From Dictyophora rubrovolvata (taxonomy: Eukaryota > Basidiomycota > Agaricomycetes > Phallales > Phallaceae), in the NCBI GenBank assembly GCA_029959195.1, contig CP114127.1, positions 1,364,001 to 1,428,000 on the forward strand: a DNA stretch of 64,000 nucleotides, given 5' to 3'. This document shows, in pieces, positions 17,394-63,660 of this stretch. How positions within the stretch are numbered: position 1 is the first letter of the stretch; every line of letters starts with the position of its first letter. A program made the translations under genes and the position numbers. Below the pieces are notes generated by a model. That model was not told where the DNA came from, did not search any database, and worked only from the letters and a program-made list of their open reading frames with translations.

Positions 17394-18170
17394 TTGTTCA
17401 CAACTTGGCTCTCAACCGGCATGCTCTCCTTGAATAAACATGCAGAAATTTGAGTCAGAATTGTGCCTGCAGCTCTCAAAAGTTTCTGTCAGTTCTGGTT
17501 TATGGATCTAAGAAGGATTGTTGCTGTAGGGAAATAAGGTGGATCGGACAGTTTATGTCCGGTGAGTCTGTACGCTCTCTTTAAATAATATCCATACTGG
17601 GCCATTGACAATTCACATTGCATGGCCCCACCCTTCTCAAGACTCTCAACGATCAAACCATCCAGCCATGATCAATTAGAAAGCGAAATGATAAGTGCCG
17701 TGTGTCCATGTCATGGTTTTGTTCCTGGAGTTACCCCACCCCATCCATAACAATTTGCAATATACATTGCTTCACCTAGTCACATATGGTCCATTCCATA
17801 TTCGATGACTTGTATTTTTGACCAGTTAACCATTAGCAATCGAACCAAGCACTGACTTGTGATGGGAAGCATCGGTCTTAGGCTGAGTGCCTGCCAAAGC
17901 ATTCTCAATTTTTTCAAGGTGATTTATGATGCCATAGGAGGTACTTACATCTCATCGTTATCTCATCATTATTCATCACCTTTTCAGCACATGAAAAGGT
18001 GTTAGAGCTAGGTGATCCTATGGTGCCAGGTCTTATGTCGAGTGCCCTTCAGGATATACATACCATCCTGCACGAATGTGCAAAGTGCAAGTGAAGCAGT
18101 GATCATGGCGCGAGAGCATTTGCTCCTAGAACAAGACAAGGCTTCTTCCTCCATTTCCTCTTCCTCGCGG
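17394..18170. other. Intergenic
   Basis: No gene, repeat or RNA seen. It ends at the left border of the A/B element, next to GCGG. Confidence 0.4.
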
Positions 18171-18303
18171 TGTCGCGCACCAAAATCTTCCTAATAAGGA
18201 AATGTTCTGATTTTTGGTTCAAAGCGGAGTGTCAAACTACCAAAAACTTAACCAATACACCACAGCCTCTCGAAATCAAAACCCTTACAAAAAAAAAAAA
18301 AAA

Positions 18304-18936
18304 ATGGCTGCATTTTTATTTCACTATACATCATCAATCTCTTTGCCCATTCCAGCATCTCCCACCGAGTCATTACCCCCCTCTGACGATGAATCTATAT
18401 CACCTTTTCGTTTTTCGCCTTCCAGTCCAAGGACATACGATTTGGATCTGCATACGACTCTTTATATCTATAGTTCCCAATATGCGAGTCTCAACATCGA
18501 TGAAGAAACGTACCTCCCGAAGTTCCCTCCACCTCTTATTATTCGTCAATGCAGAAGTTCGGATTTGGTTCACCCCGGTCTCATGTTTGGAGAAAAGGTT
18601 TATATCGAGGAATGATTAGACTGGTTTACAATTATCAACGTTTATTCTACACCCGAATCAGCCATTAAAGACTCATATCGGATTTGGTTAGTGACACAAG
18701 AAGGGTTCGAATTTACATTCCTGGTTCTAGATATGCCAAGTCGTTGGGTTGTCATGAAAAACATAAAAACGCAAAAACATAGCCCATATAGACCAGCCAA
18801 TCTTGTTCCTGTAGATCCTCAAATGTCTCGTTTTTCACCCCATTCGCCAGAACCAATATCTCTCCCCTCTTCTCCATCCAAACGATCCTTCCGAAAGATC
18901 CGACGCGTTTGCTCAAACCTTCTTGGACGAAATTAG
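18304..18936 (+). pseudogene. A/B element copy 1, part A (unknown family)
   Basis: Encodes a protein of about 200 residues nearly identical to part A at 62683. It has a Pro/Ser-rich N-terminus, then LDLHTTLYIYSSQYASL, the motif IDEETYLPKFPPP, RQCRSSDLVHP, FGEKVYIE, a WFTIINVYS strand and VLDMPSRWVV. The C-terminal tail is basic (KRSFRKIRRV). No known domain is recognised. It reads as a broken coding part with about one break. Confidence 0.6.
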
Positions 18937-19041
18937 GACAAAAGGCTTGATTAGGATAAGCGATTAGATTTGTATTTCATCTCCTTCTTTCTTTTTGGAC
19001 ATTTCATTAGTGCTTGAAAATTTTGGTTAACTCATATCATC

Positions 19042-19620
19042 ATGTCGGACAATAACGATACTCCTACTTCCCCTATTCCCCTTTTTTCAACTCCCTTTCT
19101 TCCCTTTTGAATATCGTTCTTCTCTCAGATTCGGACCCAACCCTAATTTCCTCTCACGACTTCGCGTTTACAATACTCTTGTTTCTGAAATTGATGTCGA
19201 CCCCTCCACAATGCTTCCGATTACTCCACAGCCACTAATGGAGATTACTATTCCTTATGACGATCTGGAGATAGGATATCCACGAGCTTTAACCCTGTAC
19301 GAACGAACCAACGTCAATGTCATGGATGAATTGTATGAGTTTGTCGAGTTCCTTTCAACAAATCATCAAGAAGAATCAATCTGGAGACTGGTCTTTCGTC
19401 ATCAATTTTGAAGTTATACTCAATTCTTATTCATAGACGCACCCCTATCTGCCATCCCATCCCCTCCCGACTACTCTGTTGGAAATCAAACCCTCCCTTC
19501 CTATTCCAATCTCCAATCCAATCTCGTTCAAGATCTGGTATTGTTAAGCATTGCCATAGCCATTATTATTGCGCCACAGCCACGAAGAAGCAGATCTCGT
19601 CAACAAGAACCAGATCAGTA
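19042..19620 (+). pseudogene. A/B element copy 1, part B and short third part
   Basis: Begins MSDNNDTPTSPIPLF. It carries the same motif class as part A (VSEIDVDPSTMLPITPQP), followed by ALTLYERTNVNVMDELYEF and a short stretch starting IDAPLSAIPSPPDY. The matching parts in other copies are at 29597-30184 (minus), 59504-59998 and 63833 onward. Function unknown; looks broken, with about two breaks. Confidence 0.5.
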
Positions 19621-19929
19621 AGAAGTTTGGGATGCTAAGATTATAGTTTTGGGTAAGAGGTAGCGCGAGAAGTGCCAGATGGTGATTTTGGTAAAGATAT
19701 GCTGGGAATCCGGTTTCATTGTTTTCTTTTGATCTCTTTTTGTTTCTCTTTTGTTTCTCTTTTGTTTCAACATACTTCCCCTATTCCCCCTAACCACATA
19801 TGCGATTCCCCTTTTTCTGTAATTGTATCCTCCATCGTTTTCTCCTTTTTCTTTTGTTTCTTTGTTCTCTTTTTGTTTCCTTTTGTTATCATGGCGAATG
19901 ATGAGTGATCATTCTGCTTTCCTTTATAT

Positions 19930-20130
19930 TTCCAAATGGTATATATACTGCATGTAAATAATTGTAACAGCAGCAATCTACCGGAACGGTTGTCTCAAGT
20001 TTAGTTCAGTTTAAGTCAAGTTCAAGTCAAGTTTCGTCTCTAGTCTATTTCTACGCTCACGTCTATTTCTTTGGATTACTCTGAGTGAGGCCTTGGAGTA
20101 TAAACTCAACGATTCGTATTGTCATTGAAG
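19930..20130 (+). promoter_or_regulatory. TATA segment and start of leader inside the A/B element
   Basis: GGTATATATACTGCATGTAA is followed after about 20 bases by a well-conserved leader (AACAGCAGCAATCTACCGG, TTTAGTTCAGTTTAAGTC). The same block lies at 60298-60500 and, more diverged, at 29040-29210 on the minus strand. Its conservation outside the coding parts suggests a promoter, or an R-U5-like region of an LTR. Confidence 0.55.
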
Positions 20131-20447
20131 CCTTACTAACTTTAAAAACAGATTATCATCGCTGTATTATCGACGGCGTATTGACTCACCATTTTTATCG
20201 CAACTCACATTTATCGTCCCCCTCACACACACACGATCTTAGGATCATCATTTTTTTGTTGTTGTTGGTTTTATATCGACGCACACACACTCTCTAAATA
20301 TCATATTATTCCCCCACCCTCCTCCTTACGAAATCAGCACCAGGACCCGCTCCACGGAGACTAGACGGCCTCAAACAAAATATCTTCGTAGTTTTTCCGA
20401 TTGTACATATAGCTACGACATTTAGCTATTATCTTCGGATCGTTACA

Positions 20448-21383
20448 GCGGGCCCTGAGTTCCATGTGCAATTCTGCTTCTGCACAGTGCAAGTGTCGCA
20501 GGTGCGGCTCGCTTTATACTGCAAGTCTACTTTGCAGGGCCATCCTCTGCCTCTACCTTTGCGACAGCTGTTGCGACGCACACCCAATGGAAGTGGTGTC
20601 TCCCGGATTGCGTCCATATCAGTCTCCACTTCCTTTTTTCCTTGGGCTTTTTGACCCAACTCCGAACTATTATGGACTGTTTATCAGACTTGTCAATTAT
20701 TCCGAAACAAAGCCATTGTGTATAACATGCAGCTGAGTCTCACAGGTGAGATTTATGTGAGAGGGACAAAATCTTGACTTTTGCGCAGATATTCGGGAGA
20801 TAAGTCAATTTGATATCCCATTTGTTCTTTCAATGATCTTTAGCAACTATGGTTGTAATTTGTCTTTTGACTATGGATTCAATGCCGTCGAGCCTGAGAT
20901 AAATTAATTTGGTTTTTACAAACTCACGTTTTTTTTGGCAAATATCTTGGCAAACAGGATAGTAGATAATGAAAGTTGTTCACTGCCATCAGATTCAGCA
21001 GCCAAGCAGGCTTTGATGGTACATTTGAGATGCACCAGGAAGAGTCCTTGTTCAGGAAGGGAGAACGAGCCAAGTTTGAATGTCAGAGTCCTAGGGGAGG
21101 ATGAGAATTAGTTGAGCAAGAGCCTCACTGCCAAAGGAAATGATCTTGATTTAGTCAATCAAGGTACCTGAGTTGACTAAGCTGACTAGTGAAATCCTGA
21201 GCACGATGACTTTGAATTCAGATATAGTTTTCTTTTGTCGGGTGACAAGATCTTGCCATCGACATGCACTGAACAATACAGTAAGTTATATTTGTTAATG
21301 CTAAGGGTACGAATGGTCATGAGCGAGGGCAAAGTCAAACGGTCCATCTCGATTCTTTTCTTGTTCGGTATAGGTGCTCCCCG
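20448..21383. other. Spacer between the A/B element and the Copia element
   Basis: No clear gene. A minus-strand open frame at 20659-20429 contains CDTCTVQKQNCTW, reminiscent of small cysteine motifs in Agaricomycete proteins of unknown role, but it is too short to call. Confidence 0.3.
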
Positions 21384-21541
21384 TTATTGAAGATAGACAG
21401 CGCCACTAAGTGTGAGCACTTGTGTAGTTAGTCTTAGCTTAGTCACACACTCGCCTAAAGGTTCAAGGCTTCGCCTTGAACTCTTTAGCTATATTCTGCT
21501 GCTTGTAATATAAGCTATATTACTCTAGCCGTTGTTAGGTT

Positions 21542-22520
21542 ATGGGCCCCACTAGTGATCCATCCAGTTCTTCTAATGACCTGTGTCAAGCATTTAAGTT
21601 TCCGAAGTTGAATGGTCAGAACTACACCTTGTGGGCAGGCTATATGAAGTCAGCCCTTCAAGCTCGATACTTGTAGCTTGTAGTCCAAGGGATAGAGACA
21701 TGTCCAAAAAAGCCTGCAAGCTCTCAGCCTGACAAAGTAACTGAGGCTGCCTGGAAAGCTGAAAAGAAGGAGTATCTGGAGTGGATGCAGAGAGATCAAG
21801 TGGCACAGGGTATGATGCTTGGTGCGGCCGATACATCACAGTGGCCACATGTCAAGAACAAAGCGACGTCGAAAGAAGTGTGGGATGGGTGGGAAGATCT
21901 ATATGTTAAGAACCAGCAGAGGATCAACATACATTACCGTTTCGAGGAATTGTACACCTGAAAATATGTTGATGGAGAATCAATGCCTGAACATGTTGCC
22001 TCCATTCTTGATTTGGGTCAGAAGATCACAGCTGCAGGTGAAAACCTCCTGAATATCCACATTGCTCGAGCGCTGGTATTATCATTACCCAGAGAAGCCT
22101 CATGGGATCTAGTCAAGATCCAACTGTTCAGCCTGGATTCGTCGAAGCTAACAATGGACTATGTCGGGTCTGTGTTAATCGGCAAGTACAATCGATGGCA
22201 AAAGGAGAAGGCCAGTGAAACAGCCCTTCTCACGATGAAAGACAAAAAGCGCAGGAAGAGGGGTGAAGGTTTCGGACCCAAACCTGATGACGAATGCCAT
22301 TATTGTCATGAAAAGGGACATTGGGCCAGGCAGTGTCCAAAGAAGGACAAGAATAAAACCAGGACAAGCGGAACTGTAGGCACAGCGAATCACACAGCAG
22401 TGGTGCAGAACCTTGGTGTGCGTGAAGTCAGACAGCTGTTCATGGTCCAGGCCAGTCCATTTTTGAAGTCTGATCTCGTTCTTGATACCGTAGTGACATC
22501 GCACATGTTTCGCAATTGAA
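21542..22520 (+). pseudogene. Copia 1 gag part (broken)
   Basis: Gag-like sequence of the element, with a CCHC zinc knuckle read as CHYCHEKGHWARQC near 22290. Fossil with about two breaks. Confidence 0.75.
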
Positions 22521-22537
22521 AATTCTTCAAGAACTAC

Positions 22538-25500
22538 ATGAATGTATCTGGCGAGTTCGTGTCAGTGGGAGATGTGCGGAGTGTGCCAGTTGTCGGCCGA
22601 GGATCCGTTACCTTCAAGAGTAGATTGCCGACAGGCTCTTATGAAGTGGTTTTGCATAAAGTGTTGCATGTTCCATCATTAGCTGTCAACCTTGTCAGTC
22701 TCGGGCAATTACAGAAGAACGGAGTCACTTACAGCAGCTGTGATGGTGGAATCAGTGTCTGGCAGGGTGGTGATGAGATTTTCAGAGCTTCACTAGCAGG
22801 CAGCACCGGGACATTGTACCACATCGACTGTTTGGAAGACCAGAATGAAGCTGCACTTGCTGCGACGAGTGGGAGCTTACGAGTCTGGCACTGTCGCTTA
22901 GGTCATCTTCACCTTGATGCGATCCAAGAGATGACGCGCAAAGACATGGTGAAAGGTCTGCAGATTTCAGCGATGAATGAGTTTGATCATGTGTGCGAAG
23001 GATGTGTGACTGGAAAGTCTCACCGATTGCCATTCCCGAAAGCAAGTGATACCGAGCATGCCAAGATGGATTTAGTCATGGTTGCTCTGACTGGTCCATT
23101 CCGTGTCGAAACTTGGTCCAGGATGAGATTCGCGCTTCTAGTAGTGGAAGCAGCTACAAGATTCCCAGTCGGTCGATTGCTACGCACAAAGGGCGAAGTG
23201 ATACAAGCCCTACAAGAAATAATCGCCATGCTGGAGTGGCAATCTGGCATGAGATTGAAACGTTTGCGGTGCAATAATGGTCAAGAGCTGATCAATGATG
23301 AGCTTAATGAATTCTGCAAGAAGAATGGCATCATTACTGAGATGACTGTACCTTATACACCAGAACAAAACGGCATCATCGAGCGTGCAATTGCTGTTAT
23401 ATTTGCCATGGTTCGGTGCATGTTGCATTCTGCGAAAATGGACCTGCGCTACTGGGGTGAAGCATTCAATTATGCTGTGCACATCCAAAGCTGCACGTAT
23501 ACCTCGAAGTTGAAGGATAAGGTGCCGTTTGAGGCATGGTACAACCAGAAGCCTGACATTTCGCATATCCGCATGTTTGGTTCTGTTGCGTATGTCAATA
23601 TTCCTAAGAAACTCTGTGGCGGAAAGCTGGAGCACACCTCTACCGGGTGCTGGTTGCTCGGTTGGTGGGCCGATGAAACAAAAGGCTACCGACTTGAGGC
23701 AGTGGGAGAGGACAGCCATAACATCATCACAGCTCGAGACATGACATTTGCTGAAGATGATAGCCCAGGTGATCTAGCCATCATAGAGATGAGAGGCAGA
23801 CCACCAACCCGGGCTGAATTAGATGTGCTATTCCCAGACAAGGATGCTGAGAGTGATGCCAATAAGGGAGAGAGTGGCGTTGCTGAAGAAAATGGTGGTG
23901 GAAATGTGGAAGTGCCTGTAGAGAGGCAAGCCAAGGTGGAACCCCCAGAGGTGAAGACCCATCAACCACACGGGAGTAGATGGGCAAACATACCACAACA
24001 AGACCATCCACAAAGAATAAGAAGACCACTGGCTCCACCTGGAGAAGCTGCAACTGAAGAAGAAATAGATGTGGCTTCTGAAGTAACACCTGATCAGCAT
24101 CATGCTTTCCTGACTGTTGAAGGTGACCCGGAAACTTACCAAGAAGCAACCGAGTCACCTTACTCGAAGCAGTGGGAGGAGGCAATTCAAGTTGAATACA
24201 AAATGCTGAAGTCAATGGGAACCTTTGAGTGGGTTAAAAAGGTTCTGGAAGGTCGAAAAGCCATAGGTGGCCGCATAGTATTCAAAACAAAGAAAAACGG
24301 CAATGGTGAAGTGACAAAGCGCAAAGCAAGAATTGTTGCCAAGGGCTTCTCACAGGTACCTGGTCTTGATTTCTCAGAAACGTTCTCCTCCGTCACAAAA
24401 TTCACAACCCTTTGTGTTTTGTTGTCAATTGTTGCGCATGAAGACTTGGAGCTGCATCAAGTGGATGTTGTTAGCACCTATCTTCAAGGTGAACTGGACG
24501 AAGAAATTTATATGAACGTACCTGATGGAGTGAAGGAAGAGGGAAGAGAAGGCTGGTCATGGCGACTTAAAAAGGCGTTGTATGGATTGAAACAAGCCGG
24601 ACACCAATGGAAGCAGAAGCTTGATGGAATACTCTCAGAGCTTCAATTTGAAAAAAGCACTGCAGATGACTGCCTGTACATTTTGAAGGAAAGTGGGGAA
24701 GATGGTGTTGGTTTAATGGTCCTTGTTTATGTTGATGACATGGCCGTTGCCGGAAAATCAACCTTGAAAATCAAGCAATTCAAGATGGACTTGGGCGCCC
24801 ATCTTGACATCACAGACATGAGAGAACTAAAATATATTTTAGGCCTCCAGGTTGAAAGAGATAGAGAAAAACATACTATCTCACTGAACCAAACGGCCTA
24901 TATCCATAAGATGCTCAAATGTTTCAGCATGTCAGACTGTAACCCCGTCAGCATGCCACTAACTGTTAAACACAACCTATGCAAATCTGAATGTCCATCG
25001 ATGGATGAGGAACGCAAAGCTTACCTTGAATACACCGGCAACATCAAGTTCCTCGAGTTGGTCGGCTCTTTGTTGTTTGCAACACAGACCCAACCGGACA
25101 TCCAGTTTGCAGTTGGTTTGGTCTCTCAGTTCAGCAGTAACCCTGGAAAAATACATTTAGAAGCCACAAAAAGGATTTTGAGGTATCTGAAAGGGACCGC
25201 TGAATTTAGACTAACCTTTGGATCCAACACTGAGTCCACTGTTGATGTTGTAGGGTGGAGTGACTCAGATTGGGCTCAAGATCCAGATGATTGCCGCTCA
25301 ATAGCAGGCTTCATTTTCAACATAGCAGGTGGTGCCATCTCCTGGTCATTGAAAAAGCAACCCACTGTCGCTTTATCAACCGTTGAAGCTGAATTTATGG
25401 CCGCATCAACTGCCACTAAGGAGGCCATCTGGTTGCGTACCCTACTTGCGGATCTCGGATACCCACAGTTGAAAGCATCAATCCTGCACATCAACAACCA

Positions 25501-25717
25501 GAGCTGCATTGCCCTTGCACGAAATCCAATAATGCACAGCAGAGCAAAGCACATCAACATCCAGTATCACTTCATCAGAGAGCGGGTGGAGATGGCAGAG
25601 ATTGCAACCAAATACATGTCGACGAAACACATGCTGGCGGATATATTCACAAAGCAACTGCCGCGTGAAACGTTTGAAAGGTTCCGGAGTGAATTGGGAG
25701 TGGGAGCAACGAGTTAG
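22538..25717 (+). CDS. Copia 1 pol part
   Basis: A 1059-codon reading. It contains the GAG-pre-integrase HCRLGHLHLDAI with its zinc-binding pair CEGCVTGK, integrase (PYTPEQNGIIERA), reverse transcriptase (AKGFSQVPGLDFSETF, LYGLKQAG, LVYVDDMAVAG) and RNase H (WSDSDWAQD, AEFMAAS). Part of a fossil retrotransposon; activity not implied. Confidence 0.93.
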   Translation: MNVSGEFVSVGDVRSVPVVGRGSVTFKSRLPTGSYEVVLHKVLHVPSLAVNLVSLGQLQKNGVTYSSCDGGISVWQGGDEIFRASLAGSTGTLYHIDCLEDQNEAALAATSGSLRVWHCRLGHLHLDAIQEMTRKDMVKGLQISAMNEFDHVCEGCVTGKSHRLPFPKASDTEHAKMDLVMVALTGPFRVETWSRMRFALLVVEAATRFPVGRLLRTKGEVIQALQEIIAMLEWQSGMRLKRLRCNNGQELINDELNEFCKKNGIITEMTVPYTPEQNGIIERAIAVIFAMVRCMLHSAKMDLRYWGEAFNYAVHIQSCTYTSKLKDKVPFEAWYNQKPDISHIRMFGSVAYVNIPKKLCGGKLEHTSTGCWLLGWWADETKGYRLEAVGEDSHNIITARDMTFAEDDSPGDLAIIEMRGRPPTRAELDVLFPDKDAESDANKGESGVAEENGGGNVEVPVERQAKVEPPEVKTHQPHGSRWANIPQQDHPQRIRRPLAPPGEAATEEEIDVASEVTPDQHHAFLTVEGDPETYQEATESPYSKQWEEAIQVEYKMLKSMGTFEWVKKVLEGRKAIGGRIVFKTKKNGNGEVTKRKARIVAKGFSQVPGLDFSETFSSVTKFTTLCVLLSIVAHEDLELHQVDVVSTYLQGELDEEIYMNVPDGVKEEGREGWSWRLKKALYGLKQAGHQWKQKLDGILSELQFEKSTADDCLYILKESGEDGVGLMVLVYVDDMAVAGKSTLKIKQFKMDLGAHLDITDMRELKYILGLQVERDREKHTISLNQTAYIHKMLKCFSMSDCNPVSMPLTVKHNLCKSECPSMDEERKAYLEYTGNIKFLELVGSLLFATQTQPDIQFAVGLVSQFSSNPGKIHLEATKRILRYLKGTAEFRLTFGSNTESTVDVVGWSDSDWAQDPDDCRSIAGFIFNIAGGAISWSLKKQPTVALSTVEAEFMAASTATKEAIWLRTLLADLGYPQLKASILHINNQSCIALARNPIMHSRAKHINIQYHFIRERVEMAEIATKYMSTKHMLADIFTKQLPRETFERFRSELGVGATS

Positions 25718-25802
25718 TGTGCTGAGTGGGAGTGTTGAAGATAGACAGTGCCACTAAGTGTGAGCGCTTGTGTAGTTAGTCTTAGCTTAGTCACACACTC
25801 AC

Positions 25803-25910
25803 CTAAAGGTTCAAGGCGAAGCCTTGAACTCTTTAGGTGAGCTATTTCTTTTTCATTCTTTTTTCTGTACATATCTAACATTCAAGGCTTCGCCTTGAAC
25901 TCTTTAGCTA
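25803..25910 (+). repeat. Hairpin-forming segment in the Copia 1 3' LTR
   Basis: CACCTAAAGGTTCAAGGC pairs with GCCTTGAACTCTTTAGGTG across a tiny loop, and a second TTCAAGGC/GCCTTGAA hairpin follows about 75 bases later. The 5' LTR has only one of them. Confidence 0.7.
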
Positions 25911-26190
25911 TATTCTGCTGCTTGTAATATAAGCTATATTACTCTAGCCGTTGTTACCCATGGGCAAAACCACTTCCGCTTTATGTAATCAAGATGGGAA
26001 TTTTTCTTTGACAAAGTGGCCTATACAGTATGTAAGTCTGATTGAATGAACTCAAACAACTTATCATGGATATAGCAAAATCTCCATCTGGCGGTCTGAC
26101 AACATACACGGTTGCATTATCTAGATCAATATGAAGCGAGTCGGTGGATCCTATAATTACCAGTCTCTCCACGCACCAAGTCACAAGGTG

Positions 26191-39878: not shown

Positions 39879-42800
39879 TGTTGGTATTGGAGTCGCCGGC
39901 TAACAGTCAAATTAATATTGCATCGTCGCCGACAACGCATTAGTTAAGTCTTAGTAAAATATTATAAATCCCAGTAGTTAGTTTTTACCTTTTTCATATT
40001 TATAATTTTGTATATAAAGCTCTATATTTCGAGCACTAAATAACAAGTTCTATCTAAACCATAACCGCTAGTTGCGACAGGTTATGGGCCCCGAGCCCTA
40101 CTAAAATTAAAAGAACTTCACCTCGTATTCGCATCTTCTTGAACTCTTAATCTACCCCTTACTATTTTCTATCTACCGGCATTATGTCAACTAATGACCA
40201 TGCTTATAGAATCGAGCCGCTTAAAGGTGAAAGCAACTTCCCGGTATGGAAGATCAAGATGCAAGATATTCTAACCGACCTCGGCCTATTTGATTATGCC
40301 ATGAGAAGGTTAGTCAGGCTGGATGATGCAACTGCAATGGCATGGGACACGAATGATCGAAAAGCGCTCACGGCCATACGGCTACGCGTTTCCGATCCAA
40401 TCATCACTCACATTCGCGCGGCATCAACTTCTGCTGCTGCATGGGCACTTTTGATTAGAAGATTTGAGCCCAAAGGAGTATCTGCCGTGGTTGTGATCCG
40501 GCGGAAGCTATTATTAGCGTGTTGGGACGAAGGGACCGACATCTCCGAATTTATTAATACCATGCTCAAATTTAAGGACCAATTGGCAGTCCTCGGCAAA
40601 CCGCTAGCCGATGACGAATTTTCGTTATTAATTCTTACTGCATTAGGCGAATCATGGGATTCTTTTATTAATACTATTAAGGACTCCGAGTTGGCAGATT
40701 CCGAATCGATTATTAATCGCATCATCGAAATAAAGAATCGCAAAGCGTCAACTACTGCCGACACGGCATTACCAGCCAAATCTGGTAAAAAGGGTAAATC
40801 CAAATATAACCCTCATGTCACTTGTCACCATTGCGGCAAGAAAGGACATATCAAGCCGGAATGCCGAGCCCTTAAATCCCAAAAGGAGAACTCCACTAAT
40901 ATAGCCGAAGATAATTTCGCGTTCATGGTAACGGGAGCAGATTCAATCGCCCTGCCGGCATTGAAACCGACAGACTGGCTTGCAGACTCTGGAGCGGCTT
41001 CCCACATGGTCAGGGACCGCAATTTATTCCATTCTTATTCAGGAACCCCCGGCACGGTCATTAACGGCATCGGCAGTACGCCATGCCTCGGCAAAGGAAG
41101 CATTGTGCTTACCTTTCATCACAATAATAAACCAACAACAGTCACACTCAGGGACATATTACATGTGCCGAGCCTTCCTTACCAATTAATCTCCATATCG
41201 AGATTCACCTCGGTTAACCCGAGCCATCAAGTCGTTTTTATCAAAAACAACGTCTATTTTAAACGCGGCCAATCAACATTCGCGGCCGGATCACAGGCCG
41301 GACGCTTATATAACATGAATGTTACCCCTGTATTGCCGACCCCAAAAACTGATATTGCCTTATTTGGAACAACAAAACGTCGCACATGGGATGACTGGCA
41401 TAGGATAATGGGACATATCAATTTTAAGTCACTTAAAACTCTAATCAGAATGTCTACAGGCATGGAGGTTGACAATCCTGATAAGGAAATGTCACAATGC
41501 GAAGCTTGCATCCAAGCCAAACAACATGTAGAGCCCTATCCTAAGGACTCCCATATTAAGGCCAATGCTATTGGCGACTTGGTCTGCGCCGATGTTTGGG
41601 GACCGGCAAGAATGACTGCACTTGGCGGATACCGCTATTTCGTCTCATTCACAGATGTTTTTACTCGTTGGTCGCTTCTCTATTTAATTAAAGACCGGAC
41701 AGAGGTCCGATCCCGATTCAAGCACTTTGAAGCGCTTATTGATACCCAATATGGGAAGAAGATCAAAGCATTCCGCGTTGACAATGCAAAAGAATTCACA
41801 GAGGATCGCGAATTCATTAATTACCTAAAGGAGCGCGGAATCAAACTCGAAACGACGGCTCCACATTCATCTGCCCAAAACGGGATAGCCGAACGTTTAA
41901 ACAGGACGATAGTCGAGAATGCCAAGGCGATGATTTTTGAGAAAGAATTATCTAAACAATTGTGGGGTGAAGCGGTACTCTATGCTAATTATCTCAAGAA
42001 CAGATCACCCACAAGAGCCCTCGACGGCAAAACGCCAGAAGAAGTCATCACGGGAAAAAAGCCAAATTTAGAACGGCTCCAAGAATTCGGTTCAGAAATT
42101 TATGTGCTGGACCAATCCACCAATCGTGACAAGCTGGACCCAAAGTCCAGACCTTTCATTTTCACTGGCTTCTCTGACCAATCACGCGCGCATCGCTATT
42201 TTAATTCCGCTTCTCGCCAAATTAATACCTCGCATAACGTTATATTTTTAGATAACAAAGTTGAGGAAGACCGGAGTATTCCTATTAGTCTACAGGAATC
42301 AGCTACAATAGAAGCAGCAACCGACGTTCCGGCGCCAGCTGAGGGGGAGAGTATGACACAATCCACCCAAGCGCCCGTCACTCCAGCTACTCCAAATATA
42401 GTCACACCCTCGACTCCATCACAAATCCCTCGGTTATGCGAGAAACAGCCAATCAACTATCACCAATTAAATAATCCAGCATCACGATCCGTACCAAACT
42501 GGCGGGACGCGCACTTAGCCGAAGAAGAAACACCATCAATTCCCCTATTGGACAATGACGATCTAATCGCGCTTCTCAGCGCTGATTCAGAACCAATCAA
42601 TTTAGCCGAAGCCAAAACGCGCGATGATTGGCCAGAATGGCAAAAAGCGATGATAGAGGAGCTTACCACTCTGGAGGCCAAAGGAACCTATGTGAAAGCA
42701 ACCTTACCTGATGATAGGAAGGCCATAGACTCTAAATGGGTCTACAAAATTAAAAAGAATATGGAGGGAGCTATAGCTAAGTACAAAGCTAGACTAGTGG

Positions 42801-44337
42801 CCAAGGGATTTTCCCAAGTTCCCGGCGTCGATTATGAGCTCACACAAGCACCCGCACTAAGATTAGAATCACTCCGCGTCGTGCTATCTATAGCCGCACA
42901 TTACGATCTAGAGCTCCATGGCATTGACGTCAAAGGCGCTTACCTAAACGGCTACCTCGATAAAGAAATCTATATGAATCAACCACCTGGTTTCAGTGAC
43001 GGATCAAAAAACATTTTATTACTCAAGAAATCCTTATATGGACTTAAACAGTCCGGACGCGCTTGGCGAACGGAACTCGACAAAGCCTTCACTAATATTG
43101 GCTTTGCAAGGACCAATGCGGACCACTCTATTTTTACCCGATCAAATGATCTCGGCATCACCATCATCGCCGTCCATATTGATGATATGGCAATCGCCGC
43201 ATCAGCCATTCATTTGATATCACAGACGAAAAAGGAAATTTCGTCGCATTTCGAAATCACAGACTTAGGTGAATTAAAGCAGATAGTCGGACTGGAGATA
43301 CACCGGGACAGGGGGAGAAAAAGTATTTTTCTTTCTCAAAAACAATTTATTAACAAAATTATCGAGAGGATGGGTCTACAAGACGCAAACCCATCTCCTA
43401 CTCCGGTGGACACTCACTCCAAACTCCAACCGATGGACCCTGCACTCGACCCAGAAATCGAGCCACATCAATATCAAATGGCTATAGGATCGCTTATGTA
43501 CGCGTCACTAGGCACACGGCCCGACATTACCTACGCGGTACAGCACCTCAGCCAATTTTCATCACGGCCCTCCAAAGCTCATTGGACAGCCGTTAAACGC
43601 GTTTTCCGGTACCTTAAAGGCACATTAAACGCCGGAATTACTCTTGGATCGACCAATCAGCTCACACTAGAAGGTTTTTGCGACGCTGATTGGGGCGCAA
43701 ATTTAGCGGACCGGCGCTCTGTTACCGGCTATATTTTTAGATTAGGCGGACCAATCAGCTGGTCATCAAAGAAACAGCCAACCGTCGCTTTATCAAGCAT
43801 GGAGGCTGAATACATGGCTATTGGCCATGCAACCCGCGAAGCCATTTGGCTTAGGTCACTAATTTCCGAATTAGGTTTATCTATCGCGGAACCAACGGAA
43901 ATCAATGTAGATAATCAAGCCGCGATTTCATTTGCTAACGACGAGACACTTCACTCGCGCACCAAACACATCGACATCCGACATCATTTCTGCCGAGAGA
44001 AAGTTAATTCAGGCGAAATTCGAACCAATTATATTTCAACAAATGAAAACACCGCCGACTTATTCACCAAGCCGATGAATGCGCCGAGGCACGCCGACTT
44101 ATGCAAACTCGCCGGCATGCTCTCGTCGAGGGGGAGTGTTGGTATCGGAGTCGCCGGCTAACAGTCAAATTAATATTGCATCGTCGCCGACGACGCATTA
44201 GTTAAGTCTTAGTAAAATATTATAAATCCCGGTAGTTAGTTTTTACCTTTTTCATATTTATAATTTTGTATATAAAGCTCTATATTTCGAGCACTAAATA
44301 ACAAGTTCTATCTAAACCATAACCGCTAGTTGCGACA
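39879..44337 (+). mobile_element. Ty1/Copia retrotransposon 2 (looks whole, young)
   Basis: LTRs at 39879-40079 and 44137-44337, both 201 bp (TGTTGG...GCGACA), differ at about three positions (about 1.5%), so insertion was recent. Flanks ATGCA and ATGCG suggest a 5-bp target duplication with one change. The primer-binding-type block GGTTATGGGCCCC follows the 5' LTR. One long gag-pol reading fills the interior. No break seen. Confidence 0.95.
40184..44161 (+). CDS. Copia 2 gag-pol polyprotein
   Basis: A 1325-residue reading. It holds gag with zinc knuckle CHHCGKKGHIKPEC, protease DWLADSGAASHMV, GAG-pre-integrase HRIMGHINFKSL, integrase with HSSAQNGIAERLN, reverse transcriptase (AKGFSQVPGVDYE, SLYGLKQSGRAW, VHIDDMAIAA) and RNase H (FCDADWGANLADRRS, AEYMAIGHA). 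Element fossil entry; looks whole. Confidence 0.96.
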   Translation: MSTNDHAYRIEPLKGESNFPVWKIKMQDILTDLGLFDYAMRRLVRLDDATAMAWDTNDRKALTAIRLRVSDPIITHIRAASTSAAAWALLIRRFEPKGVSAVVVIRRKLLLACWDEGTDISEFINTMLKFKDQLAVLGKPLADDEFSLLILTALGESWDSFINTIKDSELADSESIINRIIEIKNRKASTTADTALPAKSGKKGKSKYNPHVTCHHCGKKGHIKPECRALKSQKENSTNIAEDNFAFMVTGADSIALPALKPTDWLADSGAASHMVRDRNLFHSYSGTPGTVINGIGSTPCLGKGSIVLTFHHNNKPTTVTLRDILHVPSLPYQLISISRFTSVNPSHQVVFIKNNVYFKRGQSTFAAGSQAGRLYNMNVTPVLPTPKTDIALFGTTKRRTWDDWHRIMGHINFKSLKTLIRMSTGMEVDNPDKEMSQCEACIQAKQHVEPYPKDSHIKANAIGDLVCADVWGPARMTALGGYRYFVSFTDVFTRWSLLYLIKDRTEVRSRFKHFEALIDTQYGKKIKAFRVDNAKEFTEDREFINYLKERGIKLETTAPHSSAQNGIAERLNRTIVENAKAMIFEKELSKQLWGEAVLYANYLKNRSPTRALDGKTPEEVITGKKPNLERLQEFGSEIYVLDQSTNRDKLDPKSRPFIFTGFSDQSRAHRYFNSASRQINTSHNVIFLDNKVEEDRSIPISLQESATIEAATDVPAPAEGESMTQSTQAPVTPATPNIVTPSTPSQIPRLCEKQPINYHQLNNPASRSVPNWRDAHLAEEETPSIPLLDNDDLIALLSADSEPINLAEAKTRDDWPEWQKAMIEELTTLEAKGTYVKATLPDDRKAIDSKWVYKIKKNMEGAIAKYKARLVAKGFSQVPGVDYELTQAPALRLESLRVVLSIAAHYDLELHGIDVKGAYLNGYLDKEIYMNQPPGFSDGSKNILLLKKSLYGLKQSGRAWRTELDKAFTNIGFARTNADHSIFTRSNDLGITIIAVHIDDMAIAASAIHLISQTKKEISSHFEITDLGELKQIVGLEIHRDRGRKSIFLSQKQFINKIIERMGLQDANPSPTPVDTHSKLQPMDPALDPEIEPHQYQMAIGSLMYASLGTRPDITYAVQHLSQFSSRPSKAHWTAVKRVFRYLKGTLNAGITLGSTNQLTLEGFCDADWGANLADRRSVTGYIFRLGGPISWSSKKQPTVALSSMEAEYMAIGHATREAIWLRSLISELGLSIAEPTEINVDNQAAISFANDETLHSRTKHIDIRHHFCREKVNSGEIRTNYISTNENTADLFTKPMNAPRHADLCKLAGMLSSRGSVGIGVAG

Positions 44338-52714: not shown

Positions 52715-54648
52715 TGTTAAGTACCAATACTCAGGTATCGATGACGAATGTATATATGTTAGAGTTCATATCTAATATTAATACAAATGTCACCATGTTG
52801 TTGTAGAGCGTGGTCTCAACCTGAGTGGGTTGTACCATAACAGTCCTCTGAATGTTAGCTCTACTTGTCTTGACGATGCTCGGGACCTTTGAGTCTTCTA
52901 AGAATGTTGTTGAGCTGAAGCTCTAGAAAGTCTAGAACAATCTGTAGGAATAGATCGTCGACAAGAAAGCAGAAAAAGAGGAGATTAAAGAAATAGTGGA
53001 TCCAATGCTGGAACAGCATTATTGCTACAGATAGTTTGGATTTAAAGTGTTTGGAAATGATTGAAGCATTAATGAGTAGGAAAGACTATATTGAGATATC
53101 GAACTAGGTTCGATATTAAGTCTAAAGAGAAGTCTAGCTATGATGTATAGAAATGTCATGATCCAAATTCATGACATCACTAGTGATACAGATTCCCTAT
53201 CTTATTTCCTTATCTTATCGTATTTAAGCATTATCTTATCACAATCACATCACAGACACTACAACTGGAAGTCTTGCCAGACTTCATCGCCATTTCACGA
53301 AGTCCTAGACACCGTTGTCTTCCTAGGACTTACAGTAAGCTGTGGATAGACCTTCGGTCTACATTCTAGTTCCAAACCACGCATGAGATCATCTATGACG
53401 GTCGTAGGTCCTTGTATGTGTTTTCCCTTTGTTCTTGTTGCCTCATGTTTGCCACATGGCAAACTGACCCTGCATATACTTATGATACTCATGAATTACT
53501 ATGACATGTATACGTTCTCAAGTTCGTTATCTATTTCGAACTGAGATTCAAACCTCTAGCATACTTGTATATAAAGCCTTCTATACTTCATAGCTAGACT
53601 TCTCTTCAGACTTAATATTGAACCTAGTTCGATATCTCAATATAGTCTACATTTCCCAATAGTGCTTCCGTCATTTCAAAACACTTTAAATCTAAACCGT
53701 CCGTAGTGACAATGCCGTTTCGGCATTGGATCCGCTACTTCTTCCATCTCTTGTTCTTCTGCTTTCTAGTTGACGATCTATTCTACCAGATCATTTTAGA
53801 CTTCTTAGAGCTTCGGCTCAACGATATTCTCCGACGACTCGAAGATCCCGAACGATGTCAAGACAAGTAGAGTCAACGTCCAGAGGACTGTCGTGGTACA
53901 ACCCACTCAGGTTGAGACCGCGCTCTACGACATTACAGTGACATTTGTATTATCATTAAATACGATTATTAACGTTTATACATTTGTCACCGATACCCGA
54001 GAATCGGTACTTAACACATTGGATCCGCTACTTCTTTAACCTACTCTTTTTCTGCTTCCTTGTCGACAATCTATTCCTACAGATCATTCTAGATTTCCTA
54101 GAGCTTCGGCTCAACAATATCCTCCACAGACTCGAAGGTCCTGAATGTCGTCAAGACAAGTAGAGCTAATGCTCAGAGGACTGTCATGGTACAACCCACT
54201 CAGGTTGAGACCACGCTCTACGCCAACCTGGTGAAGTTTGTATTACTATTAGATACAGATTCTAACACATATACATTTATCATTGATACCCGAGAATCAG
54301 TACTTAACAAGAAAGCTTTATATACAAGTATGCTAGAGGTTTGAATCTCAGTTTGAAATAGATAACGAACTTGAGATCATATACATGTCATGGCAATTCG
54401 TGAGTATCATAAGTATATGCAGGGTCGGTTTGCCATGTGGCAAACATGAGGCAACAAGAACAAAGGGAAAACATATACAAGGACCTACGACCATCATAGA
54501 TGATCTCATGCGTGGTTTGGAACTAGGATGTAGACTGAAGGTCTATCCATGGCTTATTGTAAGTCCTAGGAAGATGACGGCATCTAGGACTTCGTGAAAT
54601 GGTGATGAAGTCTGGCAAGACTTCCAGTCATAGTGTCTGCGAAGCGAT
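52715..54648 (-). mobile_element. LTR of the 861-bp family, minus strand, with a nested insertion
   Basis: 52715-53148 and 54310-54648 are the two halves of one minus-strand LTR related to 32186-33046. Between them lies 53154-54309, flanked by AGAAA on both sides. Its 5' side abuts the LTR at 54649. Confidence 0.8.
53154..54309 (+). mobile_element. LTR (863 bp) plus partial second LTR, nested
   Basis: 53154-54016 is a full-length LTR like 32186-33046. 54017-54309 repeats the last third of the same LTR and ends in the same ACTTAACA. AGAAA at 53149-53153 and 54310-54314 is the target duplication, so the pair inserted as, or collapsed to, one unit without an interior. Confidence 0.8.
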
Positions 54649-55053
54649 TGTCAGGATACACTAGCATCATCCCCTTCTTTTCCTCTGTTTATCTTCAGTT
54701 CTGGTCTATTTTATTCATTTCCATATTTCTCGTATTTTATCCCATCTCTTGTGTTTCCCTCTCCTTCCGTATTCCCATTTTCCCTTCAATGGGTGCTGAG
54801 TGCCCGTTCCCATCAGAGCCATGGCCTAGGCCCCGGCTAAAAGTCCAGGACCAGCCCATATCCGTGCCCAGTCCATGAACCGAAGGCCACGTGTGGCCTT
54901 CGCCGTTTTTCATAGTATATAGTTAGTAGCCCTAGAGGAGGGATCCCTAAGTTTGTTCTCTTAGGATCCCCTCCCTCTAGGTGAGTTAGTATCTTTCCCA
55001 AAATATATTTACTTAGAATCCCCTCTCTCTAGTCTGAGTGAGTAGCCCTGACA
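54649..55053 (+). mobile_element. Solo LTR, TGTCAGG family (copy L1)
   Basis: About 405 bp, TGTCAGG...CCTGACA. Shares GGGCACTGAG/CCATGGCCTAGGCC and the CCCTAGAGGAGGGATCC...CCCTCCCTCTAG pair with the other five copies. No target duplication seen, so it may be recombined. Confidence 0.85.
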
Positions 55054-55407
55054 CTGTCTCCTAAGATTGTGAGACATGAAGAATGACTCAAGGGGGATTG
55101 GGAGGTGATGTGTTACTGGAATCAGGTTCTGGGAGTTCATCTCTAAATCTCAAAGGCAAATGGTGATGGTGTTGGGGACACTTTGGATCATTTTCTTCAT
55201 TCCCAGCGAGAGGTAAAACTTCATTGTCGGGCAATAAAGGCATCTGAATGTACATCCCTTATATTGTATATGCAATATCTCCAATTTATCACTTACCTCA
55301 GGCTCGATATGCATTGGATATGACACACCTTCAGCAGTATTGAAATATGGAAATACTGCCAGCTCATCCAACTGTCTCCTTTTATAATCTCTGAGATCTT
55401 CTGATGT

Positions 55408-57239: not shown

Positions 57240-57355
57240 AGATCCGAAATTGTTTGAGATTGTGAAATCGATAAAATGAGTATAATGAGGAACCTGGCTT
57301 CAACTTGTGTGTTGCGCCTGCTCCAAAGACTTTGAAATGTTCCTCAATTTGAATT
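57240..57355 (-). mobile_element. Fragment of the 55766-56366 LTR family, inverted
   Basis: GAGGAACCTGGCTTCAACTT and TGTTGCGCC are the inverse of the 3' part of that LTR. Confidence 0.6.
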
Positions 57356-57763
57356 TGTCAGGGTACGCTAGCGTCGTCCCCTTTCTTTTCTTCCGTTTAT
57401 CTTCAGCTCCTGTCTATTTTATTCATTTCCACATTTCTCGTATTTTATCCCATCTCTTGTTCTCCCCTTTCCTTCTGTATTCCCATTCTTCTCTTCAACG
57501 GGTGCTGAGCACCCATTCCCATCAGAGCCATGGCCTAGGCCCCAGCTAAAAGTCCAGGACCGGCCCATATCCACGCCCAGTCCATGAACTGAGGGCCGCA
57601 TATGACCTTCGCTGTTTTTCATAGTATATAGTTAGTAGCCCTAGAGGAGGGATCCCTAAGTTTGTTCTCTTAGGATCCCCTCCCTCTAGGTGAGTTAGTA
57701 TTCTTCCCAAAAATATATTCTCTTAGGATCCCCTCCTTCTAGTCTGAGTGAGTAGCCCTGACA
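57356..57763 (+). mobile_element. Solo LTR, TGTCAGG family (copy L2)
   Basis: 408 bp, TGTCAGGGTACGC...GTAGCCCTGACA. No matching target duplication. Confidence 0.85.
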
Positions 57764-57901
57764 CTCCCCAACTTGGATTGAAGAGTACCATTGACTCCCA
57801 TTTATTCCTGGGTGCCAACTGGAAAGAGTGGTGGCACCACTCATATTCTGATCCAATGCAACTCATTTGACATCCTTTGGAACAGCCAAACTCTGGCCAC
57901 T

Positions 57902-58598: not shown

Positions 58599-58723
58599 TG
58601 TCGCACACCAAAACCTTCCTCATTTGGTGATTAGGCTGCTTATCCAAAGCGGACATTCAAATCCTCCCTTCCTAGAAAGTGACTATCAACTTACCCAAAT
58701 TCCCTTATTCAAATAACAATAAA

Positions 58724-59215
58724 ATGTTCAATCTTCATCTCTCATCCACATTCATGATTAGAAATCCTACCTCTTTCCCAGACACCCAAGATTCTTCCCC
58801 AGAAGATGTTATCCCTCCGATATTTCGTTATACTCATGATAGTCCTTGTACTCATGATCTGGATATCGAGACTACTTTGTTCACTTATTATTCCCCGATG
58901 CCTATCCTCCAAATTGACCCCACGACTCTTCTCCCAGTCTACTCACACAAGGTTCCTAGAAGTATCCATAAATGTCGAAGTTCAGATATCATACATCCCT
59001 TCTTGGCGTTTGGAAGAGAAGTCTACATTGAGAAGGAATTAAGATGGTTTACAGTAACTCATGTTTATTCTATGCCAGAATCAGCCTTACAAGATTCATA
59101 CCGTGTCTGGTTAACGACACAAGTTGGGTTAGAATACATGATAATGGTTCTGGACATTCCTAGTCGATGGATCCTATCATCATACAATCACCAACCGGTC
59201 TTAGGATTCTATTGA
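58724..59215 (+). CDS. A/B element copy 2, part A
   Basis: A 163-residue reading from MFNLHLSSTFM. It contains LDIETTLFTYYSPMPI, the motif IDPTTLLPVYS, KCRSSDIIHPFLAFGREVYIE, LRWFTVTHVYSMPESALQDS and VLDIPSRWIL, all matching the order in copy 1. No domain recognised. Shorter C-terminal tail than copies 1 and 3. Confidence 0.55.
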   Translation: MFNLHLSSTFMIRNPTSFPDTQDSSPEDVIPPIFRYTHDSPCTHDLDIETTLFTYYSPMPILQIDPTTLLPVYSHKVPRSIHKCRSSDIIHPFLAFGREVYIEKELRWFTVTHVYSMPESALQDSYRVWLTTQVGLEYMIMVLDIPSRWILSSYNHQPVLGFY

Positions 59216-59503
59216 CCTGCCAATCCCCTTCCCAAAGAACCAACAAACTCCTCATCTAACCATAATTCACCTCCCCAATCTCCGACTTCTTCTGATTTAA
59301 CAATACACCCTCCTCGATATTAACAAACAATCCACACACTTCGACGTGTTTGTTCTGGATTCCTAGAATGAGCTTGATCAGTTTGGAACATAATAAAGAA
59401 CAAAAATAACGTATAAGGGTAAACATCTATTTTAATCATCTGGTCTCTTTTTGTTTTGGAGTTCCAAGTTTCTTCAGCCTTACTCTATCCCTTCGCTACC
59501 ATA

Positions 59504-59998
59504 ATGATCAACCTCACAGCCTCTTACACCATGTCATCATCCAATCGCCCACATGGCGATTTCAAAACGGTCATACAAGAATATGTCCTCCGTCGAAAAG
59601 GACTAATCAATATCAACGAAGAAACCTTGTTACCCTTTCACGATGGGTACATCCAACATATGCTCTACTACAATGATTTAAGGTTACCGCCAATACTTCG
59701 TCTATATGATCAATATCATATCAGAGTAAAGGGACATTCGTATGAACTTGCAGCATATCTACAGATGTATTGAGATGGACGGCTAGCTTGGTGACTCATC
59801 TTCCAATGATCTGTGCTTTTAGCCAGACAAGTCCTATTCCTTGATGCCCCTTTAGACGTATTCCCATACCCTCCCGGTTTCTACTCTAACCCTCCCAATC
59901 CTCTTACTCCATCCCCTCGTTACGAGGCAACTAATTCAGTAACATTTTATTTGCCGATGACTAGACGACCTCGACCGATGGAAGAAGAGGATGTATGA
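59504..59998 (+). pseudogene. A/B element copy 2, part B and third part
   Basis: Part B contains QEYVLRRKGLININEETLLP and RLPPILRLYDQYHIR, again the (I/L)(N/D)xxTLLP motif. The third part reads FLDAPLDVFPYPPGFY. Fossil. Confidence 0.45.
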
Positions 59999-60803
59999 CT
60001 CATAAAGAGGAGAAGAGTAAGAGATTAGGAAAATGGAGGAATTGTTACTGTAGGAGTATGGTGCAAAAATGGTAAAAAGGAGAGTATTGCTTTCTTCCAA
60101 ATTGGGACTGTTTATGTTTGTTGTACTTCTATTTCCTCCCTGAAAAATTCCTCATCACTTGTTGTTCTCCCCAAATGTAACTCTTCCTCTCTTTTTCTTC
60201 CTTTCTTTTTTCCTTTTATTGTTTCATGAAAATAGTTTACAATTGCTTATTGTTAAACCTCCTAAACATTCCAAAATTATTTCTTTTGTTCTAAATGGTA
60301 TAAATACTGCATGTAAATACGTGTAACAGCAGCAATCTACCGGAACGGTTGTCTCAAGTTTAGTTCAGTTTAAGTCAAGTTCAAGTCAAGGTTTCGTCTC
60401 TAGTCTATTTCTACGCTCATGTCTATTACTTTGGATTACTCTGAGTGAGGCCTCAGAGTATAAACTCAACGATTCGTATTGTCATTGAAGCCTTACTAAC
60501 TTTAACAGTTTACTATTGCTGTATTATCGATGGTATATTGTCATACCATTTTTATTGCAAATTCATATTCATCCCCCTCACACATACAAGATCTCAGGAT
60601 CGATTATTTTTTTTTGTTGTTGTTTAGTTTGATATTGACACTCACACTCACTATATCATATATTCCCCCACCCTCTTTTCCATGAAATCAGCACCAGGAC
60701 CCGCTCCACGGAGACTAGATGACCTCAAACAAATATCTTCGTAGTTTTTCTGATAGTATATTTAGCTACAACATTTAGCTTTTATCTTCGGATCATTACA
60801 GCA

Positions 60804-61044: not shown

Positions 61045-62148
61045 GTATCTCCTAAAAACCCCCCTCTCCCTATGCCTTCTTCTACACTGCCACCTCTATG
61101 ACTCTCGACTTCAAAATGGAAGTCAATACCCTCCAAATATTGACTTGCAGCCACCACCGGTACTCAGAAACTTGAAATCTCAGTAGAGCTCCAGAGTACT
61201 GATACAGAAGATCTGATTACCAGCAAAGCCATGCTTGATATGGGTGCTAGTGGTATGTTTCTGGACTGTGATTTTGTTGAGAGACATCGACTCCCGACTG
61301 TCAAGCTCCCAAAACCTATTCCCGTATTTAATGTTGATGGTACACCCAATCAGGCTGGTGTCAGGGCTACTCACTCAGACTAGAGGGAGGGGATCCTAAG
61401 TAAAATATATTCTGGGAATAATACTAACTCACCTAGAGGGAGGGGATCCTAAGAACAAACTTAGGGATCCTTCCTCTAGGGCTACTAACTATATACTACA
61501 AAAAATGGCAAAGGTCATACGCAGCCTTTGGTTCATGGACTGGGTGCGGATATGCGCTGGTCCCGGGCTTTTAGCCGGGGCCTAGGCCATGGCTCTGATA
61601 GGAACGGGTGCTGAGTGCCCGTTGAAGGGAAAAATAGAAATACGGAAGGAAAGGGGAAGACAAGGAGTAGGATAAAATATGAGAAATGTGGAAATAAATA
61701 AAATAGATAGGAACTGAAGATAAACGGAAGAGATGAAAGGGACGGCATTAGCGTACCCTGACAGCTGGTGCCATCACATATGTGGTCAATCTGGTTATGA
61801 GGTATCAATCCCACTCTGAATGTGTCCTATTTGCTGTCACCGCACTTAGGAAATATCCTGTATTACTGGGGCTACCTTGGTTCAAGGCCCACAACCTGGT
61901 GATTGACTATACTGATGCATTGTAGTCCCCAATGTCGTTCCTGTGCACCCAGCTGGCCTTTGGGTTGTCATACTAAATGTTCCTTCCGACAGATCTGAAT
62001 GTCTGCAGATGTGATGCTTGATAACACCAAGGCTGAAGATCCTGACATGCCTGATCTGGCAGATATGGAAGACAAGCTCCAACTGGAGGACGGTAATCGA
62101 CTCTTTGGTATTTCGATGGTTGACACTAGACCTCCATTGCGTTGGTGC
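61045..62148 (+). mobile_element. Ty3/gypsy interior fragment (protease region) with a nested LTR
   Basis: Aspartic protease-like sequence: MLDMGASGMFLDCDFVERH, PKPIPVFNVDGTPN, then after the LTR ECVLFAVTALRKYPVLLGL and PWFKAHNLVIDY. This is the retropepsin-to-linker part of fungal gypsy elements. Fossil fragment, interrupted by copy L4 and bordered by A/B copy 3. Confidence 0.8.
61359..61763 (-). mobile_element. Solo LTR, TGTCAGG family (copy L4)
   Basis: 405 bp with GCTGG duplicated on both sides (61354-61358, 61764-61768). Confidence 0.92.
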
Positions 62149-62181
62149 TGTCGCACACCAAAATCTTCCTAATAAGAAAAC

Positions 62182-62587
62182 TGTCAGGGTATGCTAGCGT
62201 CGTCCCCTTATTTTTCTACATTTATCTTCGGTTCTGGTCTATTTTATTTATTTCTATATTTCTTGTATTCTATCCCATCTCTTGCATTTCCCTCTCCTTC
62301 CGTATTCCCATTTTTCCTCCAACGGGCACTGAGCGCCCGTTCTCATCAGAGCCATGGCCTAGGCCCCGGCTAAAAGTCCGGGACCGGCGTATATCCGTGC
62401 CCAGTCCATGAACCAAAGGCTGCGTGTGGCCTTCACCGTTTTTCATAGTATATAGTTAGTAGCCCTAGAGGAGGGATCCCTAAGTTTGTTCTCTTAGGAT
62501 CCCCTCCCTCTAGGTGAGTTAGTATTATTCCTAGAATATATTTTGCTTAGGATCCCCTCCCTCTAGTCTGAGAGAGTAGCCCTGACA
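62182..62587 (+). mobile_element. Solo LTR, TGTCAGG family (copy L5)
   Basis: 406 bp nested in A/B copy 3; flanks AAAAC and GAAAC suggest a 5-bp duplication with one change. Confidence 0.88.
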
Positions 62588-63253: not shown

Positions 63254-63660
63254 TGTCAGAGCTACTCTCTCAGACTAGAGGGAGGGGATCATAAGAGAAC
63301 ATATATTCTAGGAATAATACTAACTCACCTAGAGGGAGGGGATCCTAAGAGAACAAACTTAGGGATCCCTCCTCTAGGGCTACTAACTATATACTATGAA
63401 AAACGGCAAAGGCCACACGTGGCCTTCGGTTCATGGACTGGGTGTGAATACGCGCCGGTCCCAGACTTTTAGCCGGGGCCTAGGCCATGGCTCTGATGAG
63501 AACGGGCGCTCAGCGCCCGTTGGAGGAAAAATGGGAATACAGAAGGAGAGGGAAATGCAAGAGATGGGATAGAATACAAGAAATATGGAAATAAATAAAA
63601 TAGACCAGAACCGAAGATAAATGTAGAAAAATAAGGGGATGACGCTAGCGTACCCTGACA
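63254..63660 (-). mobile_element. Solo LTR, TGTCAGG family (copy L6)
   Basis: 407 bp with TTCTC duplicated on both sides (63249-63253, 63661-63665). Confidence 0.93.

Follow-up and report, generated by a model that had tools for sequence, protein, structure and literature searches.

The presence of protein genes in U3 is known from textbooks as a peculiarity of a few vertebrate retroviruses. The sag gene of MMTV and the nef gene of primate lentiviruses are accessory protein-coding sequences that lie inside U3 and are therefore present in both LTRs. Among fungal elements, the LTR subfamilies of crapaud in Podospora anserina (339-443 bp) differ in U3 upstream of the TATA box and share a conserved 3' half, and the available part of the published description reports no LTR-encoded genes (PMC10787394). 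Here, a repeated unit with two genes, A and B, was analyzed in a window of 64,000 nucleotides (the whole stretch of DNA under analysis) on contig C11 of a 28.24-Mb fungal genome comprising 11 contigs. We regard it as very probable that this unit represents a long LTR (2.2-2.35 kb) belonging to a Ty3/Gypsy retrotransposon, with genes A and B in its U3, insertion at NCGN sites and solo LTRs produced by recombination.

Copy 1 of the unit (subfamily A, 2277 bp, TGTCGCGCACC...ATCGTTACA) occupies exactly 18171-20447 on the plus strand and is flanked by the target-site duplication GCGG at 18167-18170 and at 20448-20451, as described in a first-pass annotation of the window. The four copies counted there were recovered, the three others being a solo LTR of subfamily B at 58599-60800 (plus strand, 2202 bp), a solo LTR of subfamily C at 31157-28804 (minus strand, 2354 bp) and an LTR of subfamily A running on the plus strand from 62149 past the window edge at 64000. 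The proposed start TGTCG(C/T)(A/G)CACC and end TTACA hold for the window, and the reversed control patterns gave 0 matches across the genome. Copy 1 has a duplication to itself and lacks an internal region, which makes it a solo LTR.

The copy at 62149 contains two insertions of about 406 bp (TGTCAGGG...CCCTGACA, at about 62182-62587 and 63254-63660). These belong to five TGTCAGG...CCTGACA sequences in the window, the remaining three being located at 54648-55055, 57355-57765 and 61359-61763. The five fall into two groups that align within the group, look by eye like one family in both orientations, and are perhaps short solo LTRs. At 39879-44337 lies a Copia element whose 201-bp LTRs are 98.5% identical and whose gag-pol is an open frame of 1325 aa; a second, older Copia element is present at about 21387-25956.

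Gene A is located at 18304-18936 and gene B at 19042-19621 of copy 1, both on the plus strand; the ATG of gene A is at position 124 in many copies and that of gene B near 862. Gene A encodes 210 aa in many open copies and has an in-frame stop in copy 1; gene B encodes 180-192 aa in open copies, and in copy 1 no frame from the B start stays open for 90 aa. Stops shorten both genes in the subfamily B copy of the window, and in the subfamily C copy both are present and interrupted. The first-pass division into A, B and a short third part stands for A and B as genes; the third part reads, by eye, as a CT-rich promoter region (19622-19939, plus strand) with a TATA box (19940-19947, plus strand) and a putative R-U5 leader (19964-20447, plus strand), not as a gene. 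U3 (about 1.75 kb) was assigned by position upstream of the TATA box.

The TATA-plus-leader block previously noticed near the end of the unit, which adjoins the TATA box, is common to subfamilies A, B and C, and its core had 163 genomic matches with up to 3 mismatches, 100 of them listed. The 3' block is the part best conserved between subfamilies (A vs B, 88% over 1760-2277; A vs C, 73% over 1754-1936), resembling in this respect LTRs with a rapidly evolving U3, such as those of crapaud. No ATG occurs in the 484-nt leader of copy 1, the window A copy, nor in that of the window C copy, and the window B copy has 4. Among 12 distinct copies, the leader had no ATG in four, one in four and two to four in four. 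Shuffled leaders were expected to hold 3-5 ATG, compared with 0-1 in 8/12 copies; the depletion is modest, with a shuffle P at or below 0.05 in 5/12 copies and of 0.29-0.31 for the older B copy.

Genome-wide, 98 matches to the start (1 mismatch allowed) and 95 to the end (2 mismatches allowed) were found, and unit ends are present on all 11 contigs. Pairing of the end matches gave 58 start-to-end copies with constant ends, spanning 2.15-2.35 kb, for subfamilies A and B together. The window copy, used as DNA query, matched at least 39 other places at 96-98% identity, 37 along the full length, with 40 of 195 candidates scored. For subfamily C, 20 matches, including the window copy, covered the full 2352-base query and 3 more lacked at most 7 bases, the other copies being 87-97% identical to the window copy. 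Subfamily C is nested in A and in B copies, and two long start-to-end spans on C8 (9.0 and 8.5 kb) hold such nested C insertions. Ordinary host tandem genes that only appear repeated would account for A and B being conserved coding sequences, but the spread of the ends over all 11 contigs, the constancy of these ends with separate duplications at each copy, and the nesting of C in A and in B make this explanation scarcely credible.

Several arrangements of copies were observed in addition. At C1:875538-900266, element starts are mirrored about 887902 in three pairs with equal sums, forming a palindrome of about 25 kb that is either real or an assembly artefact, and mirrored gene-A matches with equal scores also occur at C10:1383793/1399078 and C2:2360451/2367195. 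The inverted A-copy pairs C4:2490773/2498790 and C7:1931858/1938431 have an identical 1.5-kb 3' half, CpG sites included, and differing flanks, suggesting gene conversion between inverted repeats. Near-identical 3' flanks adjoin the A-copy pairs C1:3093446/C7:1374890, C6:902226/C11:800445 and C7:2127278/C8:899859, which may reflect preferred insertion sites within repeats, or else duplicated hosts. A 196-aa ORF on the minus strand of C9:748800-753200 resembles, by eye, a DDE/Tc1-type transposase.

The unit has TGT...ACA ends and a 4-bp duplication NCGN. In the 58 A/B-type copies with both flanks read, the 4-bp duplication was exact in 30 and had at most one mismatch in 49, compared with means of 2.8 and 18.9 of 58 for shuffled flank pairs; none of the other lengths from 2 to 8 stood out in these copies. 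The central pair was CG, TG or CA in 58/58 left and 57/58 right flanks (115/116), against a window background of 17.6%. Over all A/B-type ends read, covering the flanks of 93 of the 95 ends and 84 of the 98 starts, this CpG rule fits 90/93 3' flanks and 82/84 5' flanks. For subfamily C, flanks were read for 22 of the 23 copies (C8:742779 left out), and the central pair fits in 22/22 left and 22/22 right flanks, with 2/22 duplications exact and 17/22 having at most one mismatch. Mismatches between duplications concentrate in the central pair (29 vs 11 in A/B-type copies, Fisher p 0.003; 22 vs 4 in subfamily C, 4e-5), which together with the central pairs of the flanks indicates an NCGN target with later CpG decay. 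Once CpG transitions are allowed, the duplications are equal in 49/58 A/B-type and 19/22 subfamily C copies, in line with the mobility proposed for the unit; in 9/58 A/B-type copies they disagree even so.

Decay of CpG extends over the unit. Columns with CpG in any copy differ by 17% and other columns by 0.9% (25 copies, 5' half), a general pattern that fits methylated CpG. Outside CpG columns, the divergence from the nearest neighbour is 0.07-0.5% in 24/25 copies in the 5' half (median 0.2%) and has a median of 0.4% in the 3' half (28 copies, two diverged ones included); judged by these divergences, the A family is young. Retroviral-type integrases have weak target preferences. The NCGN rule is far stricter, and opens CpG- or methylation-directed integration to direct test.

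Ginger elements share TGT/ACA-type termini and a 4-bp TSD, and the unit could on this ground be a Ginger-like DNA transposon, cut and pasted by a retroviral-type integrase. Ginger and other TIR DNA transposons have terminal inverted repeats tens of bases long, but both-strand BLAST of the unit against the window found no terminal repeat (repeats under about 25 bases could escape). The Pfam search of the A and B proteins gave no match, and the junction on C4 described below is that of an LTR with a primer-binding site (PBS), so that we assign a DNA transposon a negligible probability. The first-pass statement that no mobility gene is recognisable is thus correct for the unit itself; it fails for the element, to which a gag-pol found elsewhere belongs.

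This gag-pol is on C4. The copy at C4:2498790-2501043 (minus strand) ends in CGTTACA and is followed by AAAG and then by TGGCTGCCCCAGTGAGGC, an 18-nt PBS, offset by 4 nt, with 18/18 complementarity to the 3' ends (CCA added) of two tRNA genes, on whose identity ARAGORN splits (one Asn gtt, the other Ile tat). The 13-base tRNA end CTCACTGGGGCAG has three exact genomic occurrences, namely the C4 junction (opposite strand) and the two tRNA genes. The copy has no duplication on the PBS side (GCGG vs AAAG), as expected of a 5' LTR, indicating that it is one. Downstream of the PBS, gag is contained in a 755-aa open frame, with a Pfam zinc-knuckle match below the cut-off, and pol has RVT_1, RT_RNaseH, Integrase_H2C2 and rve matches above the cut-offs and a protease match below it. 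The order gag, protease, RT, RNase H, integrase is that of Ty3/Gypsy, with the integrase cut short, and the best solved structural relatives of pol are Ty3 Gag-Pol and PFV integrase. Stops divide pol into several open segments. A solo A copy, oppositely oriented and flanked by a separate TCGG duplication, interrupts the integrase gene, and beyond this copy, by reading, a few integrase codons resume and unrelated sequence follows; the 3' LTR was not found in the stretch read, and the rest of the integrase is also lost.

A PBS match of at least 12/18 was present in one of the 93 A/B-type 3' flanks tested, that of C4:2498790, the other 92 having none, and almost every copy therefore resembles a solo LTR. 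Two other 3' flanks that break the CpG rule, C6:439859 and C8:1894754, have no PBS, the third such flank being the C4 junction. The two 5' flanks that break it were tried as 3' LTRs and rejected, since C2:2496576 cuts, by eye, a gag-like ORF of another element and C5:73282 has, by eye, no adjoining pol. Paired copies flanking gag-pol, raised as a possibility by the first-pass annotation, were not encountered: the assembly yielded no LTR pair in direct orientation around gag-pol and likewise no polypurine tract, and the 3' end is missing from the sole gag-pol that joins an LTR cleanly. Four pairs of same-strand neighbours occur among the 58 copies, three separated by 1.3-5.0 kb and the fourth by 12.4 kb. 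The 4,994-bp pair on C7 was rejected as a two-LTR element because separate duplications flank its two copies, exact at one and agreeing at the other once CpG decay is allowed for; its interior, the sole one of the four searched, held by eye no gag-pol-like ORF among those of at least 120 aa.

Further remnants of the element were found on other contigs. The C4 gag has 13 matches in the genome, namely C4 itself, five fragments on C7 (59-84% identity), one on C6 (28 aa, 89% identity) and six distant ones (19-29%), and the C7 fragments derive from at least two copies, as they overlap in gag coordinates. A decayed locus on C7 has, in succession, a fragment of gene A (aa 7-59 of the query, 55% identity), 7 bp, the leader and gag start (90%) and more gag; the order and strand of gene A, leader and gag match those on C4, and the 3' part of the LTR and most of the PBS are missing. 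RT remnants on C6 have 77-90% identity. A second Gypsy family with long open frames was noticed at C2:1423280-1429581 and C2:729061-732914 (RT 45% and gag 22-23% identical to the C4 copy), and its LTRs could belong to subfamily B or C.

The first-pass annotation had weighed very long LTRs with genes in U3 against a non-autonomous element with passenger genes. The former is supported by the LTR-PBS-gag-pol junction on C4, the C7 locus, the TG...CA ends, the 4-bp duplications and the TATA box with its ATG-poor leader, and renders the latter superfluous. A 2.3-kb unit moving by itself with an integrase supplied in trans, the C4 gag-pol being a chance neighbour, would agree with the 58 unit-length copies, most of which have agreeing duplications, with the recent origin of many copies by nearest-neighbour non-CpG divergence (medians 0.2% and 0.4%) and with gag-pol being reached from only 1/93 3' ends. 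A chance insertion would nevertheless not leave an LTR end precisely 4 nt from a PBS complementary to a tRNA and lacking the duplication on that side, gene-A sequence also lies upstream of the same leader and gag on C7, and some bursts of crapaud consist, in the part of the source available, only of solo or fragment LTRs (PMC10787394). We therefore consider independent movement of the unit improbable.

For the preferred reading, a Ty3/Gypsy LTR with genes in U3, the following course is proposed. Transcription would start at the TATA box and pass through the ATG-poor R-U5 leader into the internal gag, and reverse transcription would be primed by a tRNA bound to the 18-nt PBS that lies 4 nt beyond the LTR. 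The integrase would then put the cDNA into CpG-centred sites, giving the 4-bp NCGN duplications. Recombination between the two 2.3-kb repeats may delete gag-pol fast and leave mostly solo LTRs, a route suggested by solo copies with agreeing duplications. The solo LTRs would keep genes A and B, intact or decayed, and these genes may have an accessory role, sag- or nef-like and perhaps regulatory.

Both genes have the marks of coding sequence. Gene A is 45% identical between subfamilies A and B and 27-31% to C, and gene B is 31-34% identical between subfamilies, with codon position 3 the least conserved in 10/10 between-subfamily comparisons. For gene A of subfamily A vs B, dN/dS is about 0.29, with between-subfamily dS near or beyond saturation. 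Coding changes were counted in 25 copies, C11_1422599 (subfamily B) and C3_528205 (diverged) having been dropped from 27. Available CpG transitions were seen regardless of effect (56/60 in ORF A, 47/52 in ORF B), and the pooled pN/pS values of 0.34 and 0.44 were discarded as evidence of selection because CpG decay dominates them. The non-CpG test used instead gave 52 changes in 2507 nonsynonymous and 44 in 810 synonymous sites (Fisher p 5e-6), where the reference copy may itself have lost CpGs; transversions alone within subfamily A (nonsynonymous 13/1811, synonymous 1/448) made no constraint visible. The 100-aa core of gene A had no stop in 51 of 63 matches at 90% identity or more, by hand count with 150 of 187 candidates scored. 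Three database relatives are present in public assemblies, P0001 (83% to A), P0002 (32% to B) and P0003 (80% to B). The open frames, the conservation between subfamilies and the non-CpG counts argue for protein-coding genes in U3 under selection.

Fold searches of A and B gave no clear match. The two are predicted to be small, beta-rich proteins with a similar strand order and a C-terminal helix, and a weak alignment between them spans 53 columns (hhalign P 1e-4, probability 57-61%), so that they are probably paralogues that arose by duplication. Their basic tails allow the tentative view, which we hold at somewhat less than even confidence, that the targets of A and B are RNA, DNA or the promoter of the element itself. 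The main alternative is an env- or nef-like role against the host. A more specific and rather unlikely scenario would have selection maintain the two U3 genes as an accessory module working from solo LTRs in trans on a surviving element (e.g. in copy-number control or superinfection immunity), and the integrase recognise methylated CpG, which would direct insertions into silenced repeats.

With two genes inside U3, solo LTRs, usually deemed dead scars, would keep and multiply genes of the element, and a fungal Ty3/Gypsy lineage has here kept two probably paralogous U3 genes over deep divergence. The element agrees with Ty3/Gypsy in its gag, PR, RT, RH, IN order, TG...CA LTR, tRNA PBS near the LTR and solo LTRs, and differs in its long LTR (about 2.3 kb), whose U3 contains two protein genes, and in the NCGN target with a 4-bp duplication. 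With crapaud, as far as the available description goes, it shares the variable U3, the conserved 3' half and bursts left solely as solo or fragment LTRs, whereas the LTRs of crapaud measure 339-443 bp and those here 2.15-2.35 kb with genes. Retrosat2 of rice likewise combines LTRs longer than 3.2 kb with an additional ORF that has no assigned function, but this ORF0 is upstream of the gag-pol ORF and is not described as LTR-internal in the available part of the report (PMC3485330). LTR elements of bdelloid rotifers also have extra accessory ORFs and many solo LTRs, but there the ORF is ORF3 of the element, and the accessible portion of that report describes no LTR-internal ORF (PMC5408684). 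The likeness to MMTV sag and lentivirus nef is one of position, namely accessory-type coding inside U3, and the difference is that here two probably paralogous genes are found in a fungal retrotransposon.
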